Shown: piece by piece, positions 35,199-41,158 of the stretch | Numbering within the stretch: position 1 is the stretch's first letter | Layout of the letters: the number at the start of each line of letters is the position of its first letter | Assembly (NCBI GenBank): GCA_018823795.1 | Contig: JAHJGZ010000007.1 | Location: 1-63,906, forward strand | DNA: 63,906 nt | Source: Candidatus Omnitrophota bacterium | GTDB lineage: Bacteria > Omnitrophota > Omnitrophia > JAHJGZ01 | Direction: 5' to 3' | Notes under the pieces: model-generated | Seen by the model: the letters and a program-made list of their open reading frames with translations, nothing else | Told to the model about the DNA's origin: nothing | The model's database searches: none | Translations under genes and position numbers: made by a program

Positions 35199-35409
35199 CT
35201 AATAAAATGTCTTTGTTGAATATTTAAAATATCGCGTTAAAAATCGCACAATGTTCACACCCACAGCTTTAAAGTACTTAACGGCATATTGTTCAATAAA
35301 CTTTACCCCGTGAGAGTGTGATCCTAAAAAGGATATCTATACTAAAAAAATATTCATGATGTGACGTCATGTAATAAATCTATTTAAAAAAGTCGCTCTC
35401 TAACGGGGT
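35199..35409. other. Gene-free spacer with one half-palindrome
   Basis: AT-rich spacer between the PilX-like gene and the major pilin promoter. The only recognisable element is a half-site CTCTAACGGGGT at 35398-35409, which abuts the PilX-like stop codon and equals one arm of the palindrome found in the pilin leaders. GTGACGTCAT at about 35361-35370 is a short perfect palindrome. No gene or RNA structure is recognised. Confidence 0.6.
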
Positions 35410-36975
35410 TTACTTATAATAGGCAATAACGAGGCGCGGCCTGACATCGGGTGTAAGAGGATTATTGTCTGGATCTGGGTTGCTTTCCTGGGATTTAAAC
35501 GCATAGTAATCATCCACGCTAGCACTTTCATCGGTTATTCGGACCAAGAAACCATAATTGCTCCAATCGCCGATCACCCACTTTTGTACCGCTACAGTAA
35601 CATCAAAGCTGAGATACGCTGGTGGCGACGAAGCAAAATATTGTTCGCCTTGTTTATCACTATAATCATCATCCACATCAGTCCACGCATGGTTAGTTGA
35701 ACTTTCATTCCAGTTACCACCGGTAAACCGATGGACCTCAACGGTATCAGACCCAGCTATATGATCAGTATCGTTAAATAATATTAATTCAGCAAAGACC
35801 ACTTTTGAACTACTCGTCAAACCAGGAGGCTTCCCTGCTCCTGTTAAATCGAATTTCAATAAAGCCCGACATGATGTTACGCCAGACCCGAGATCTGCTC
35901 TGCCAACAATAAGATATTCATACGGGTCTCCACCTCCCACTGGGCTTTCTGGGTCATAGGGATCAAGATAATTATAATCGTTACCGGGAAAATCAACCAT
36001 TTTATCCTGATGTACTTCTGCAGTCGTATCGCCTGTTTCCCGCAAACCATACGCTGGTGCAATAACCGGGTAGACAATATTGAATTTTTGGCGTTCGGAT
36101 GTTGGAGAAACAAAAATATAGGTTGACAATACATTGTGGAGCGCACCACCCTCTTCTCCCTGCCAGTAAGGGTCAAACCGATTGGTATTCCATGGTGTTA
36201 ATGGTGTTATCTGTAACCGATGATATCCGTAGGGGACATTATCAGCAGTAAAATATTTGGTAGGACCACCGCCTGCGTCAGTCATAGCCTGCGTCTGATA
36301 GATCAAGTCGGTCTGCGCAATACTCGGATCAAAGACAGGTGGATGATACAGACAAACCGTTAAATCAGTATCATCAAGAATAGTATGTCCCCACTGAGGA
36401 TCTAATACCCCGAATGTCGTAGTATTAACAAAATAATCATCAGTATTACCGGTAACCGTTGCATTACCAGAAACGCTCGCATCAACAATACGAACCGCAA
36501 TATCACAACCGGTACGATACGCTTCTGTTATCGAAATAGACCTGTCAGCATCATCACCCGTACCAGCGGCAAGCTTATCCCGCCCAAGACTTGTAATCGT
36601 ATAATTGCCTCCACCACTAGCTAAACTAATCGTACCATACGCATCTTCCTCAGCCAATGAACTACCATCCGACCTTTTAAAGGCATCCACATCCGCCATA
36701 AGGGCGTTGATCTCTGTAGTCCCGGGAAACGTCGTTGCCTCTGAAAAATTACCGGTGTTACTACCCGCATCATTGTGACACAAATATCGATGTCCTATGA
36801 GGCGGGCTTCGACACCGCGCAGCCGCTGCCATGATAATTGTCCACGCTCCGCTGAAACAACCTCATTTAATAAGTACATTGACGTAGACAACACTATCGT
36901 AGATAAAACTATCAAAACGATGATACTTACTAAAACAAATCCTTGTTTTTTTATGCTCCTATGACTTTTATTCAT
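35410..36975 (-). CDS. PilX/GspK-like minor pilin with C-terminal DNRLRE-like domain
   Basis: A 521-residue protein with a prepilin-type start: MNKSHRSIKKQG before FVLVSIIVLIVLSTIVLSTS. Ser instead of Glu at +5 is reminiscent of GspK/PilX. After a Cys-containing pilin-like part (RYLCHNDAGSN, YRTGCDIAVRI) there is an Ig-like stretch, and from about residue 320 a DNRLRE-type adhesive domain: TTAEVHQDKMVDF, RALLKFDL, AELILFND, VEVHRFTGGNWNE, ending in RPRLVIAYYK. A tip adhesin on the pseudopilus is plausible. It is the last gene of the pseudopilin run. Confidence 0.78.
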   Translation of the reverse strand: MNKSHRSIKKQGFVLVSIIVLIVLSTIVLSTSMYLLNEVVSAERGQLSWQRLRGVEARLIGHRYLCHNDAGSNTGNFSEATTFPGTTEINALMADVDAFKRSDGSSLAEEDAYGTISLASGGGNYTITSLGRDKLAAGTGDDADRSISITEAYRTGCDIAVRIVDASVSGNATVTGNTDDYFVNTTTFGVLDPQWGHTILDDTDLTVCLYHPPVFDPSIAQTDLIYQTQAMTDAGGGPTKYFTADNVPYGYHRLQITPLTPWNTNRFDPYWQGEEGGALHNVLSTYIFVSPTSERQKFNIVYPVIAPAYGLRETGDTTAEVHQDKMVDFPGNDYNYLDPYDPESPVGGGDPYEYLIVGRADLGSGVTSCRALLKFDLTGAGKPPGLTSSSKVVFAELILFNDTDHIAGSDTVEVHRFTGGNWNESSTNHAWTDVDDDYSDKQGEQYFASSPPAYLSFDVTVAVQKWVIGDWSNYGFLVRITDESASVDDYYAFKSQESNPDPDNNPLTPDVRPRLVIAYYK

Positions 36976-37096: not shown

Positions 37097-38350
37097 TCAA
37101 TTGAGTATTACATCATAGCTTCCCGTTTCATCCGGCGACAACACGCCCGGTAGCCGCACTTCAAAGCACTGGGTCACATTCAATCCACGGGGATATACCG
37201 TAATCACTTTTTGGATATATGTTTCGCCATTCCCCGCAAGGTCATCAAGACCGGCTAAATCATCTTGATGGCAAAATTCGCCCTGCTGCGCCGAACCTTT
37301 TGGCGTTGGTACAACCGATACTAAATAAAATCCTGCGGGGAGATTAATAACCCTCACCGCACCTGAATCATACGTTATATCGGTACCCGCCGGCCCTCCG
37401 GCAGCTCCACCACCTGCATTTGATACAAAATAGTAGTGAGCGTTAGAACCAAAAGTAGTTATGTCTACCCGATATATCTGATGAAAATAGTAAGCAGTCT
37501 CTGCTGCATGATTTAATCGGAGTAATGTTCCGTTGGCATCTTTGATAAAGATTGCTATTTTATTTCTCGTATAGGCATAGGTACTAGTATCCATTAGATA
37601 GGTAATATTCTGCTCAAAACGGTCGGCACCCCCACCATCGGTTAATGAGCCAGTAGGGGGTATACTGTAATACCCGTCACTTCCGTAACTTTCAATTTTA
37701 CGTTCATAATCACTACCAAACTCATTCCATCGAAACCGATATTCCTTTCCCCATTCATCCATTAAAAAATCGTGTATACCTGCCTCGGTAATCCCCTTCG
37801 GTTCTGCCGTTAATTCATACATTACAAGCGCAACTCCATCCCGATCATCACCTGCCGGCCAACCATGATGCAGCCCAAAATAGCCAAAACCTGCCTGATG
37901 GCCAGTCTGAACTTCTTCAGGCTCTCCTACCATTGCATGAGCTACTTTTTCCATCTACGTCATCGTCTTTTTGTATCTATTCGCATCAATCAAGTCATGC
38001 GATAATGACGCACCCGCAAGAAGAACCACGGTCATAATGACAAATCCTATAAGTAATTCTAAGAGGCTGAACCCCGTTAGAGAACGATCTTTAAATAAAC
38101 ATTTTTTACCTACAATAATATTATGAATATTTTTTTTAGTGGAGACACTCTTTTGGCAAGGGGTATACTCTAACGGGGTGAACCCGGTTAGAGAACGATC
38201 TTTAAAGAAAGATTTTGTAAATCTCATAAGACTATAACTATTTTTTTTAGTATATACCCTTTTTTTACTAGGGACGCACTCTAACGGGGTGAACCCTATT
38301 ACAGCGCGTTTTTTAATAACAAGATTTTGTAAAGTATCTGTTTTCATCAT
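37097..38350 (-). pseudogene. Large pseudopilin with triple leader motif, interrupted by an in-frame TAG
   Basis: Two open stretches in the same frame (38350-37958, and ATG 37954 to 37097) are divided only by TAG at 37957-37955. Alignment with the paralogue at 38358 is gapless across it: RYKKTMT-stop-MEKVAHAMVGE against KYKATVKEMKQIKKALVGD, so TAG replaces Glu. The N-terminal half has three GF-type cleavage motifs exactly 37 codons apart (IGFTPLE, TGFTPLE, TGFSLLE); only the last is followed by a hydrophobic helix. The C-terminal half has a RINLPAGFYLV-type end domain shared with its neighbours. ATG directly after TAG may allow reinitiation, but that product would lack the leader. Confidence 0.8.
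38057..38304 (-). repeat. Three 26-bp leader palindromes at 111-bp spacing
   Basis: Copies lie at 38057-38082, 38168-38193 and 38279-38304. The consensus on the minus strand is CTCTAACGGGGT, TC, ACCCCGTTAGAG, encoding SLTGFTPLE. The spacer between them (85 bp) is also repeated. The last functional copy (38057) has diverged to TGFSLLE. The periods are exactly 111 bp (37 codons). Confidence 0.92.
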
Positions 38351-38357
38351 GAACTCA

Positions 38358-39266
38358 CTATATCTCAAGAGCATTAAGAGCGCCCGGTAAACGCATAACA
38401 ACAACATGAACCCGACTTGCTCCTTTTGGATAGACAACAATATCTTGAGAAAAAGTAGTATTCCCTTCATTAAGACAATTTTTCCAATTAGTACCGCCAC
38501 TGCCCGAATTATCCTGAACCGTAACGACCACGGGATGTGTTCCTACATCAACACCCGTTACACTAAAGATACCCGCACTATATGCTGCAGCCCCACCAGA
38601 CAACGTTACCGAGGTTATCTGGTAATTCGATTGAGTATCATTCCCCCGCAAAAGGTTTCCTTTTATATCGTATACCATAATCCTTACAATGTTGTTTGTA
38701 TATAACAACTTATTAATGGTAAGGACGATATCTTCATCGAAAGGATCACCGCTCGCTGCACCATCAAGGCCATCCCGCCCACGACTGGTCACCGTAATCA
38801 GGCCAGCTGCATCAGCATACACATAATCCCTTCCCCATGCATCTTTATCATAGTCAGTATTTGCACGAAAATAACTTGAAATATTACTTAATGCAGCCGG
38901 CCAAGAACCATTATCTCCCACATAGCCAAAATCTACCCGCTGTTTTCCTTCAACCGCATTCTCATCGCCGACCAAAGCTTTCTTTATCTGTTTCATTTCT
39001 TTTACTGTTGCTTTATACTTGGATACTTCAACACTATCCCCCATACCCCGGATACCGACCGCACCAACAATACCAATAATAACAAGGACTAAAATAAATT
39101 CTATAAGGGTGAACCCCGTTAGAGAACGACCTTTTAATAAATATTTCTTACCGACAATAACATCGTGAATATCTTTTTTAGCATAGATATTCTTTTGAGG
39201 GAGATTACACTCTAACGGGGTGAACCCCGTTAAGGAAAAAACTTTTTTCTTCATCAGCTGTTTCAT
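38358..39266 (-). CDS. Large GspG-like pseudopilin with double leader motif
   Basis: A 302-residue protein. A decoy motif SLTGFTPLEC occurs at residues 11-20 and the functional SLTGFTLIEFILVLVIIGIVGAVGIRG starts at 48, exactly 37 residues later. The middle has the GspG-type DAWGRDYVYADAAGLITVTSRGRDG, followed by an ~100-residue C-terminal domain of beta character (NIVRIMVYDIKGNLLRG, SQDIVVYPKGASRVHVVVMRLPG) that ordinary GspG lacks and that the genes at 37097 and 39315 share. It is a probable pseudopilus subunit. The start is 39266 or 39254; neither has a strong ribosome site. Confidence 0.82.
   Translation of the reverse strand: MKQLMKKKVFSLTGFTPLECNLPQKNIYAKKDIHDVIVGKKYLLKGRSLTGFTLIEFILVLVIIGIVGAVGIRGMGDSVEVSKYKATVKEMKQIKKALVGDENAVEGKQRVDFGYVGDNGSWPAALSNISSYFRANTDYDKDAWGRDYVYADAAGLITVTSRGRDGLDGAASGDPFDEDIVLTINKLLYTNNIVRIMVYDIKGNLLRGNDTQSNYQITSVTLSGGAAAYSAGIFSVTGVDVGTHPVVVTVQDNSGSGGTNWKNCLNEGNTTFSQDIVVYPKGASRVHVVVMRLPGALNALEI
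39099..39235 (-). repeat. Two leader palindromes at 111-bp spacing
   Basis: Copies at 39099-39124 (functional, diverged left arm, encoding SLTGFTLIE) and 39210-39235 (decoy, SLTGFTPLE, right arm ending imperfect). They are the same element and the same 111-bp period as in the adjacent genes. Confidence 0.9.
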
Positions 39267-39314
39267 GGATCTTTTTATATTTTTTATTGTTTATAAATTG
39301 CGTGTATCTTTTTT

Positions 39315-40418
39315 TTATAATTCCTTAACATCGACAACACCGGGCAACCGAAATTCAATATAATTGGGAACTTTTGGACTTTTTGGATATATGGGAACCC
39401 ATTGAGAAAGAGAACTATTCCCCCGCATTAAATCATCTCTATGATCTATTTTTCCTGCTGAATTCTCACCCGGCCACGACGAATAAGTGGTAGGATACAC
39501 TACTATGCGATAAAAACCGCAGGGAATAAAATATTCTGTCGCTCCTTGAACATTCGCAAATATACCATGAGAATAAAATAATTCATACCCGCTCGCTCCC
39601 TCAGTCTCAAGGATAGTATTACCATCAACATCGATAACATCCACCTGGTAAATCTGATGATCATAATTGGCACCTGCATAACCGCGAAGGATTGTCCCAT
39701 TCACATCCATGACGTTCATAAGCAAAAGATTTTCTGTATAGAGATCCTGGCGTATGATAATGTGAAAGTCTCCATAAAAAATCGTTGTCGTCCCACCCGC
39801 TGCACCATCTCTGCCTAAACATTTAATCTCAACTGCATCATAATCGGTTCCTCCTAACGTAATAGTTTCTGTGGTACTATACACAAAATCATTTCCCCAG
39901 GCATCCTGTTTATAGCTGTCAGCCACATTGGCAGCACCGATTGTTTCTTTTTGAGGTGCAGGAGGAAGGAAATCTGCTAGCCCAGAATTTGCGGGGGTGA
40001 CCGCATCATGCCCATCAGTAGGAACCTCATCACCATTTTCTGGATTAGGAAATACTCCATACCGCTCCACAAAGCCGAAATCGACCCGCGTGCCTAAATT
40101 ATTAAGCCGCTCATCACCGATAAGAGCCCGTCGTATGGTAACCATGGTATGGCAACTCTCGACATATTTTTGCGCATCAATGGCATACACCGCGTAGCGA
40201 GACCCCGTAATAGCAATAATCGAAAGAATAATGAGAACAAGAAGAACTTCAAGAAGGGTAAACCCCATTAGAGAACGATTTTTAAATATACATTTTTTAC
40301 CTATAATAATATCATGAATGTTTTTTTTAGTAGGGATACTTTCTTGGCCAGGGACATACTCTAACGGGGTAAACCCCGTTAGAGAACGATTTTTAAAGAA
40401 ATATTTTGTACATCTCAT
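39315..40418 (-). CDS. Large GspG-like pseudopilin with double leader motif
   Basis: From ATG at 40418 (MRCTKYFFKNRSLTGFTPLE) the product has about 367 residues; an ATG at 40442 is also open. The decoy SLTGFTPLEY precedes the functional SLMGFTLLEVLLVLIILSIIAITGSRYA by 37 residues. The middle shows GspG-type DAWGNDFVYSTTETITLGG and CLGRDGAAGG, and the end domain (LLLMNVMDVNGTILRGY, GFYRIVVYPTTYS, IEFRLPGVVDV) is shared with the two downstream genes. Its MRCTKYFFKNR start matches an internal MRFTKSFFKDR of the 37097 gene, so the repeats also carry a start-like segment. Confidence 0.82.
   Translation of the reverse strand: MRCTKYFFKNRSLTGFTPLEYVPGQESIPTKKNIHDIIIGKKCIFKNRSLMGFTLLEVLLVLIILSIIAITGSRYAVYAIDAQKYVESCHTMVTIRRALIGDERLNNLGTRVDFGFVERYGVFPNPENGDEVPTDGHDAVTPANSGLADFLPPAPQKETIGAANVADSYKQDAWGNDFVYSTTETITLGGTDYDAVEIKCLGRDGAAGGTTTIFYGDFHIIIRQDLYTENLLLMNVMDVNGTILRGYAGANYDHQIYQVDVIDVDGNTILETEGASGYELFYSHGIFANVQGATEYFIPCGFYRIVVYPTTYSSWPGENSAGKIDHRDDLMRGNSSLSQWVPIYPKSPKVPNYIEFRLPGVVDVKEL
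40248..40384 (-). repeat. Two leader palindromes at 111-bp spacing
   Basis: Copies at 40248-40273 (functional, one arm diverged) and 40359-40384 (a perfect 12-bp inverted repeat with 2 central bases). The latter encodes the decoy SLTGFTPLE motif. Confidence 0.92.
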
Positions 40419-40467
40419 ACTAGTATGACCACTTTTTAGCATTCACATTTTTGCTTTTCGTATCACA

Positions 40468-40482
40468 CTCTAACGGGGTAAA
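40468..40482 (-). repeat. Decayed half-palindrome upstream of the 39315 gene
   Basis: CTCTAACGGGGTAAA on the plus strand equals one palindrome arm. It lies 109 bp from the next copy, not 111, so it is out of register with the reading frame and outside the gene. It looks like a decayed third repeat unit. The surrounding spacer 40443-40618 holds nothing else recognisable. Confidence 0.7.
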
Positions 40483-40618: not shown

Positions 40619-41158
40619 CTAGCCACCGGTTCCTTCATACTGAAATGATACTTCAATATCATCAGTACCCCCGGTACTGGTAATGGTAATTGCACCATCA
40701 GTCGTTGCATACCCATAGTCAACTCCCCATGCATCTTCTAAAGAATCAGCGGTGCCATTACTATCATTATCTTTGTCATCAACATACGGACCATACCATC
40801 CAGTGCCTGAAACGGGATCTATCGCACCGTCCGCAGGAGTATTGACCAGTTCACTTAATCCGGTCGGAACTCGATACATGTGCGGTATAAACCCATGAAA
40901 CTGTGTATCAACATTGCCAGCAATAGCAGAAATAAGTTCCGCCATTTCTGCCTTTGTAGCCTGTATCCGCGCGGTTTCTTGTAAATCCCCAAATTTAGGG
41001 ATGAGCACACTCGCTATGATGCCGATTATTACCATAACCATAACACACTCGATAAGGGTAAACCCGGTTAAAGAACGATCTTTAAAGGAATGTTTTTGTG
41101 ATATGATCGATTGGTTTTTTCCGGCACGTGGTACCATGGTGTGTGTTCTCTTCTGCAT
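40619..41158 (-). CDS. GspG-like pseudopilin
   Basis: A 179-residue protein with a 33-residue leader ending KDRSLTG before FTLIECVMVMVIIGIIASVLIPKFGDL. The same KDRSLTGFTLIE words as the repeated leaders are used, but only one copy occurs. The globular part has WYGPYVDDKDNDSNG and DAWGVDYGYATTDGAITI, the GspG calcium-loop type pattern. It lacks the C-terminal extension of the three downstream pseudopilins. It is probably a subunit of the same pseudopilus. Confidence 0.85.
   Translation of the reverse strand: MQKRTHTMVPRAGKNQSIISQKHSFKDRSLTGFTLIECVMVMVIIGIIASVLIPKFGDLQETARIQATKAEMAELISAIAGNVDTQFHGFIPHMYRVPTGLSELVNTPADGAIDPVSGTGWYGPYVDDKDNDSNGTADSLEDAWGVDYGYATTDGAITITSTGGTDDIEVSFQYEGTGG

Follow-up and report, generated by a model that had tools for sequence, protein, structure and literature searches.

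Repeated cleavage motifs in three prepilin genes

A 63,906-nt stretch (positions 1–63,906) of contig JAHJGZ010000007.1 from a Candidatus Omnitrophota bacterium (assembly GCA_018823795.1; own genome 3.19 Mb), referred to as a whole as the window, contains three prepilin genes in which the Gly-Phe pair of the prepilin cleavage site recurs at fixed distances. The genes are on the minus strand and belong to a type II secretion/type IV pilus cluster that also encodes T2SSE and T2SSF proteins. In the first, the three-GF gene at 37097/37955, the Phe codons of these pairs are at 38293–38291, 38182–38180 and 38071–38069, with spacings of 111 + 111 bp; the first is the original site and the last the functional one. 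The 38358 gene has Phe codons at 39224–39222 and 39113–39111 and the 39315 gene at 40373–40371 and 40262–40260, each pair again 111 bp apart. An extra copy in the 39315 gene (Phe at 40482–40480) lies 109 bp further upstream, out of frame and with Asn before the Phe. These coordinates agree with an earlier reading of the same letters (the original prediction), which had reported GF motifs at exact 111-bp intervals, three in the first gene and two in each of the others. The regularity is far above chance.

That reading had also described a hydrophobic helix after the last copy alone, and this holds: the upstream copies read GFTPLE or NFTPLE, and matches to the N_methyl profile are confined to the last copy of each array (SLTG^FTLIEFILV and similar). 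The final copies have the features of class III signals, with Gly or Ala at −1, a hydrophobic segment next and usually Glu at +5. The three-GF gene is divided by an in-frame TAG (37957–37955) into open reading frames (ORFs) 37955–38347 and 37097–37954, both in one frame; its 38358 sister has Glu at the matching position, and the TAG may reflect decay or a consensus error.

Two features go beyond the earlier reading: a palindrome at each upstream motif, laid out as CTCTAACGGGG-TTYA-CCCCGTTAGAG, and the occurrence of half of this palindrome throughout the genome. Where neighbouring units join, the ends form the near-perfect palindrome CTCTAACGGGGTTYACCCCGTTAGAG. From these features and the evidence below, we conclude that the 111-bp repeats are very probably (roughly 0.88) copies of a non-autonomous inverted-repeat transposable element inserted at Phe(+1)-Thr(+2) of prepilins, where insertion would be tolerated after removal of the leader.

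Ends, target and spread of the repeat unit

The element has the structure (TTYA)CCCCGTTAGAG...CTCTAACGGGG(TTYA), with terminal inverted repeats and a 4-bp target duplication, and measures about 60–170 bp across the family and 111 bp net in the window (Table 1). With up to one mismatch, its 11-bp end matches the bacterium's own genome 167 times, compared with 21 matches for the reversed pattern, corresponding to roughly 70 elements. Outside the arrays these are mostly single units of about 100–140 bp that start with CCCCGTTAGAG, finish with CTCTAACGGGG and are often flanked by repeated TTTA or TTCA; 25 of 46 copies have matching target duplications. One such copy in the window is inserted at the stop codon of the 35410–36975 gene, and its TTTA duplication supplies that gene's TAA. 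The 26-mer CTCTAACGGGGTTYACCCCGTTAGAG, allowing up to three mismatches, has nine matches in the genome and none for the reversed-pattern control. The exact palindrome is found once among 58 genomes; it is too strict a search pattern, because full palindromes arise at tandem junctions alone. Tandem copies share one duplication, so that the palindrome is their junction, and this junction again contains TTYAC and is itself a target for the next insertion.

Table 1. Proposed element units and associated features in the window, with predicted original leaders
Feature	Position	Strand	Remarks
Unit A, 37097/37955 gene	38072..38178	-	107 bp core; duplication TTCA/TGAA at 38068-38071, 38179-38182; inverted repeats; downstream end encodes SLTG ahead of the functional Phe
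Unit B, 37097/37955 gene	38183..38289	-	tandem upstream of unit A; duplications 38179-38182, 38290-38293; holds in-frame ATG (MRFTKSFFKDRSLTG)
Unit A, 38358 gene	39114..39220	-	duplications TTCA at 39110-39113, 39221-39224
Unit A, 39315 gene	40263..40369	-	duplications TTTA at 40259-40262, 40370-40373
Unit B, 39315 gene	40374..40478	-	105 bp core; duplications TTTA at 40370-40373, 40479-40482
Original start and leader, three-GF prepilin (MKTDTLQNLVIKKRAVIG)	38294..38347	-	still in frame across both elements (222 bp)
Original start and leader, 38358 prepilin (MKQLMKKKVFSLTG)	39225..39266	-	in frame across element (111 bp)
About 44 bp of element downstream end (HSFKDRSLTG), forming leader of 40619-41158 prepilin	41056..41099	-	89% identity, 2 mismatches to repeat end; other end not recognisable
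Element copy outside prepilin leader	35306..35408	+	duplications TTTA at 35302-35305, 35409-35412
GIY-YIG nuclease element fragment at contig end	8..127	-	one intact repeat end (118-127)

The same element is widespread. An exact-pattern scan of GTDB genomes returned at least 115 stretches, and the phyla among the matches listed include Omnitrophota, Patescibacteria, Planctomycetota, Elusimicrobia, Deltaproteobacteria, Nitrospirae, Stahlbacteria and others; perfect 4-bp duplications flank 101 of the 118 elements among these listed matches. These duplications rule out a REP-like extragenic repeat lacking an insertion signature. The target logo derived from restored empty sites reads T-T-N-A, with C as the next base in 80 of 97 sites and nothing beyond TTNA|C. 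In 2.9 million viral contigs, checked for spread by phage, no complete element of this form was found. The open-access literature that we searched held nothing relevant on GIY-YIG nucleases with inverted repeats or miniature inverted-repeat transposable elements (MITEs), on transposable elements of Omnitrophota or on the repeat sequence itself, and we found no earlier description of the family there.

Prepilin sites and translation across the element

The association with prepilins has a basis in the codons. Phe-Thr is encoded by TTY ACN, and so every such pair contains the TTYAC target. In the phase of these codons the leaving end of the element reads TCT CTA ACG GGG (S-L-T-G) and the entering end ACC CCG TTA GAG (T-P-L-E), without a stop. 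Because the target lies within the Phe-Thr codons and the end reads SLTG, an insertion at G^F-T always rebuilds Gly(−1)-Phe(+1). In the own genome, 18 prepilins have TTYA at the site (17 Phe-Thr and one TTC-AGC), 10 of which carry a near-intact element end (0–1 mismatch) and an eleventh an end with two mismatches; neither of the two prepilins with TTTT (Phe-Ser) does. If insertion were uniform, as the estimate assumes, about 0.07 would be expected by chance from ~73 elements on ~17,700 TTYAC sites, and P is about 2e-10 even for six independent events. Targeting of prepilins through additional sequence such as a preceding GG is ruled out, as the logo shows no preference for G before TTNAC. Since the logo reveals no special attraction, survival of the insertions at prepilins best accounts for their abundance there.

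Removing the element restores an ordinary leader: MKQLMKKKVFSLTG^FTLIEF in the 38358 gene (further, FTLIEFILV) and MKTDTLQNLVIKKRAVIG^FSLLELL in the three-GF gene, with MRTNKG^FTLIEILLV, MKASAIKFRAG^FTLIEF, KRLFKKRSTG^FTLIE and MKKEENRLCRRKG^FTLVE on other contigs. The restored site of the 39315 gene has Asn at −1 (LQN^FTLLEV), perhaps because that site is out of use. On this evidence, the upstream ‘decoy’ GFTPLE is the original cleavage site, parted from its helix by the proposed insertion. Separately, a copy of the C167 subfamily (49.4 kb; L033:2956-3059) lies in another Phe-Thr pair, in the leader region upstream of a prepilin's normal site, which suggests local hopping inside the pilin cluster. 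A C209 copy (L037) that had been flagged as a prepilin insertion proved to be a chance pattern match (FTICE), with no recognisable prepilin segment.

The same arrangement recurs in other genomes. An element end occurs at a prepilin G^FTxxE site in 32 of 384 Omnitrophota genomes (29 genera), compared with none for the reversed control, and a Planctomycetes genome has a prepilin insertion too (L146). We read 70 distinct prepilin sites; both ends are present at 50, and 44 of the 50 have perfect duplications. Among these 44 sites, 30 have Gly and 8 have Ala as the restored −1 residue, the two residues with which class III leader peptides end (PMC10191384). Tiny members with 65-bp cores (69 bp net) and perfect TTTA duplications are also found at prepilin sites, where they encode PLE...LTG (L287, L291–L294 and L297).

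Several lines of evidence suggest that the spacers are translated, as the original prediction had proposed from their mostly conservative differences. The length is a multiple of 3 bp and the reading phase stop-free in 38 of 50 prepilin-borne elements but in only 49 of 236 ends sampled regardless of site (Fisher P 2e-13), and in 10 of the remaining 12 an ATG follows the last stop. In the window, unit A has an open coding frame in each of the three genes; the unit has no in-frame ATG and must thus be read from upstream. Its Nei–Gojobori ratios of non-synonymous to synonymous substitution (dN/dS) are 0.40, 0.74 and 0.43, suggestive values from too few codons (29) to be more than that. In one other genome, DeMMO3_19, where one subfamily occurs both inside and outside prepilins, the ratio of non-synonymous to synonymous differences (pN/pS), from pairwise counts that are not independent, is 0.44 in five prepilin copies versus 1.04 in six copies elsewhere, and 1.21 and 0.78 in the shifted frames of the prepilin copies. 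Thus the ratios for the spacers in their coding frame are not near 1, the value that the original prediction had named as a sign of untranslated repeat DNA. With unit B of the 39315 gene the net insert is 109 bp, which puts the original leader out of frame, so translation there must begin within the element (for example, at MRCTKYFFKNRSLTG). The spacers are probably translated in most prepilin copies.

Read-through of the element is not special to pilins. MurG (L041:273-1523) and MurE (L041:6607-8220, minus strand) of the own genome each carry an in-frame element peptide of 34–36 residues (TPLE/TQLE...SLTG); across this peptide, and along the length of the protein, both are still recognised as members of their families. 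The element is also in frame in a radical-SAM gene and in an NHL-repeat protein of this genome.

A number of observations weigh against a translated transposable element at these sites. The three-GF gene, with its in-frame TAG, is possibly decaying. In some copies translation has to start within the element, where no clear Shine–Dalgarno sequence is seen in the window. The in-frame baseline (49/236) consists of element ends from other genomes and phyla, with copies that are partly related, and the copies behind the selection estimates are related and few in number (3 for the window; 5 versus 6 for DeMMO3_19). Furthermore, at 20 of the 70 prepilin sites identified by pattern the far end is not recognisable, so that decayed copies or ordinary LTGFT leaders may be among them.

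The original prediction took the repeats for extra leaders that could tune prepilin processing or sorting, and selection for functional decoys, acting also on dosage, could account for in-frame spacers that are under purifying selection when in prepilins. Maintenance of the frame alone accounts for that selection, however, and the tuning role finds no support: the same element, with inverted ends and transposon-type duplications, lies between genes and inside unrelated enzymes (MurE, MurG and the radical-SAM gene), its copy number varies among sister genes, no helix follows the upstream motifs as a class III signal would require, and its removal leaves a normal leader. We therefore regard functional decoys as very unlikely. 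Alternatively, the original leader could have been multiplied within the prepilin genes by tandem duplication or gene conversion, through slippage at the palindrome and with no mobile element involved, which would fit head-to-tail arrays at exactly 111 bp. The identities between units bear on this possibility. The A unit of the 37097 gene shares 85% identity with its counterpart in the 39315 gene and 74% with the one in the 38358 gene; across genes the A units share 68–85%, whereas A and B units share 59–72%. The B unit at 38183 is 72% identical to the A unit of its own gene and 71% to the B unit at 40374. From these values the arrays appear to be mostly older than the pilin gene duplications and to have been copied along with them, so that spread by pilin gene duplication probably occurred. 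As the origin of the repeats, however, leader duplication seems to us barely credible and is refuted by perfect 4-bp duplications at unrelated sites, single copies scattered over the genome and many phyla, and clean empty sites; it may still explain the copying of existing arrays.

Movement of the element and consequences for the host

Longer elements of about 265–290 bp have the same ends, and their sole ORF encodes a GIY-YIG nuclease (PF01541, 63 bits against a cut-off of 22.6). Among 70 GIY-YIG loci found by tblastn, a few of them counted twice, 37 are enclosed by element ends with at most one mismatch each, and 16 of the 37 have matching duplications; enclosure holds for 26 of 30 loci that share at least 62% identity with the query, versus 11 of 40 that are more distant. 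Of 34 distinct GIY-YIG elements, 22 have an ORF that stays stop-free up to the element edge in the S-L-T-G phase; the next codon in 15 of these 22 is a TAA or TGA supplied by the flanking target word. A nuclease ORF that runs to the edge in this phase accounts for the coding character of the end. A 288-bp GIY-YIG element with TTTA duplications is inserted in a prepilin of genome G078 (C46; L302; Phe codon at minus-strand 1510), where nuclease-LKRFLSLTG^FTLVE-pilin forms a single frame.

These observations make the 265–290-bp element a probable autonomous relative of the short one, and we hypothesize that the GIY-YIG nuclease is the mobiliser. The short elements could instead be moved in trans by an unrelated transposase, with the nuclease as a passenger or parasite of the same ends, a proposal that concerns the mobilising step only. 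The 4-bp duplications resemble those of DDE-type transposition, in at least one element-rich genome, DeMMO3_19 (G226/G238), no close GIY-YIG relative is present (best E 1.5e-13), and just 16 of the 37 enclosed nuclease elements have matching duplications. On the other side, about 0.8 Mb of flanks yielded no transposase ORF enclosed by matching ends, and the bounding of nuclease loci by ends is far more frequent among close relatives than among distant ones. We put a trans-acting transposase not far short of even odds. In its fullest form the nuclease hypothesis makes the 265–290-bp element, with its protein of about 86 residues, a complete transposon that mobilises itself and is one of the smallest known; the element and its deletion derivatives would have spread through many phyla partly via prepilin Phe-Thr codons, where the host peptidase would trim off the element peptide, and in the L302 fusion this cut would set free an active nuclease and a normal pilin. 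We regard this form as possible rather than likely.

The insertion of the short element into prepilins can be pictured as follows. The element would insert at TTNA|C with a 4-bp duplication, landing on the Phe-Thr codons, and the inserted end would rebuild Gly(−1)-Phe(+1) before the hydrophobic helix, with the entering end reading F-T-P-L-E and no stop. In an open element whose length is a multiple of 3 bp, translation would run from the old start through the helix-less old site and on through the element peptide until it reaches the rebuilt one; in other cases the new leader would come from a start codon that the element itself provides. The insertion would lengthen the cytoplasmic leader, and the prepilin peptidase, whose gene (Peptidase_A24) is present once in the own genome, would cut off leader and element peptide before Phe(+1). 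By the rules for class III signals, removal of such long leaders by the peptidase is most likely. The mature pilin would be unchanged, leaving the insertion silent and tolerated, and each junction would regenerate TTYAC, allowing a second copy to settle beside the first and build tandem arrays.

Individual traits of this system are familiar. The final copy in each array is a normal class III site (K/R..G^F(T/S)xxE) with its hydrophobic helix in a type II secretion system/type IV pilus-like cluster, except that the leader is longer by 37–74 element-encoded residues with helix-less copies of the motif. Rickettsia palindromic elements are short (~150 bp) repeats that lie in frame in protein genes and add a peptide (reviewed in PMC10969869). 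Compared by description only, the element in the window is likewise in frame and stop-free in protein genes (prepilins, MurE, MurG, the radical-SAM gene and the NHL protein), but it has clear inverted ends, 4-bp TTNA duplications, a nuclease-coding relative, a range of many phyla and a preferred home at a prepilin cleavage site rebuilt by its own end. It resembles MITEs in being short and multicopy, with inverted ends, target duplications and no transposase; it differs in that no parent transposase was found in the flanks, the sole coding relative found here carries GIY-YIG, and the ends read as coding sequence. With inteins and in-frame homing-nuclease elements the family shares a small nuclease gene in frame in a host gene and a host protein that keeps its function after translation. 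Unlike them, it has no self-splicing: the host leader peptidase would remove the peptide at prepilins, the peptide stays in MurE and MurG, and the duplications point to transposition rather than to homing into an identical allele. The nuclease belongs by sequence to the same single-domain family as UPF0213-type GIY-YIG proteins (PF01541; PDB 1zg2, BH0048, E 1.9e-9), with the difference that inverted repeats enclose its ORF, that this ORF usually continues to the repeat edge with no stop of its own, and that it can be fused to a prepilin (L302).

For annotation, the consequence is that in Omnitrophota, as in other uncultured phyla, what is annotated as the N-terminus of a prepilin can be sequence of the element. 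The family amounts to an inverted-repeat element of wide distribution that follows a clear target rule (TTNA|C), has a coding basis for being associated with pilins and comes with a candidate minimal nuclease to move it. More broadly, it would represent a mobile element whose damage is masked by host protein processing rather than by splicing, with the leader peptidase in the role played elsewhere by the intein.

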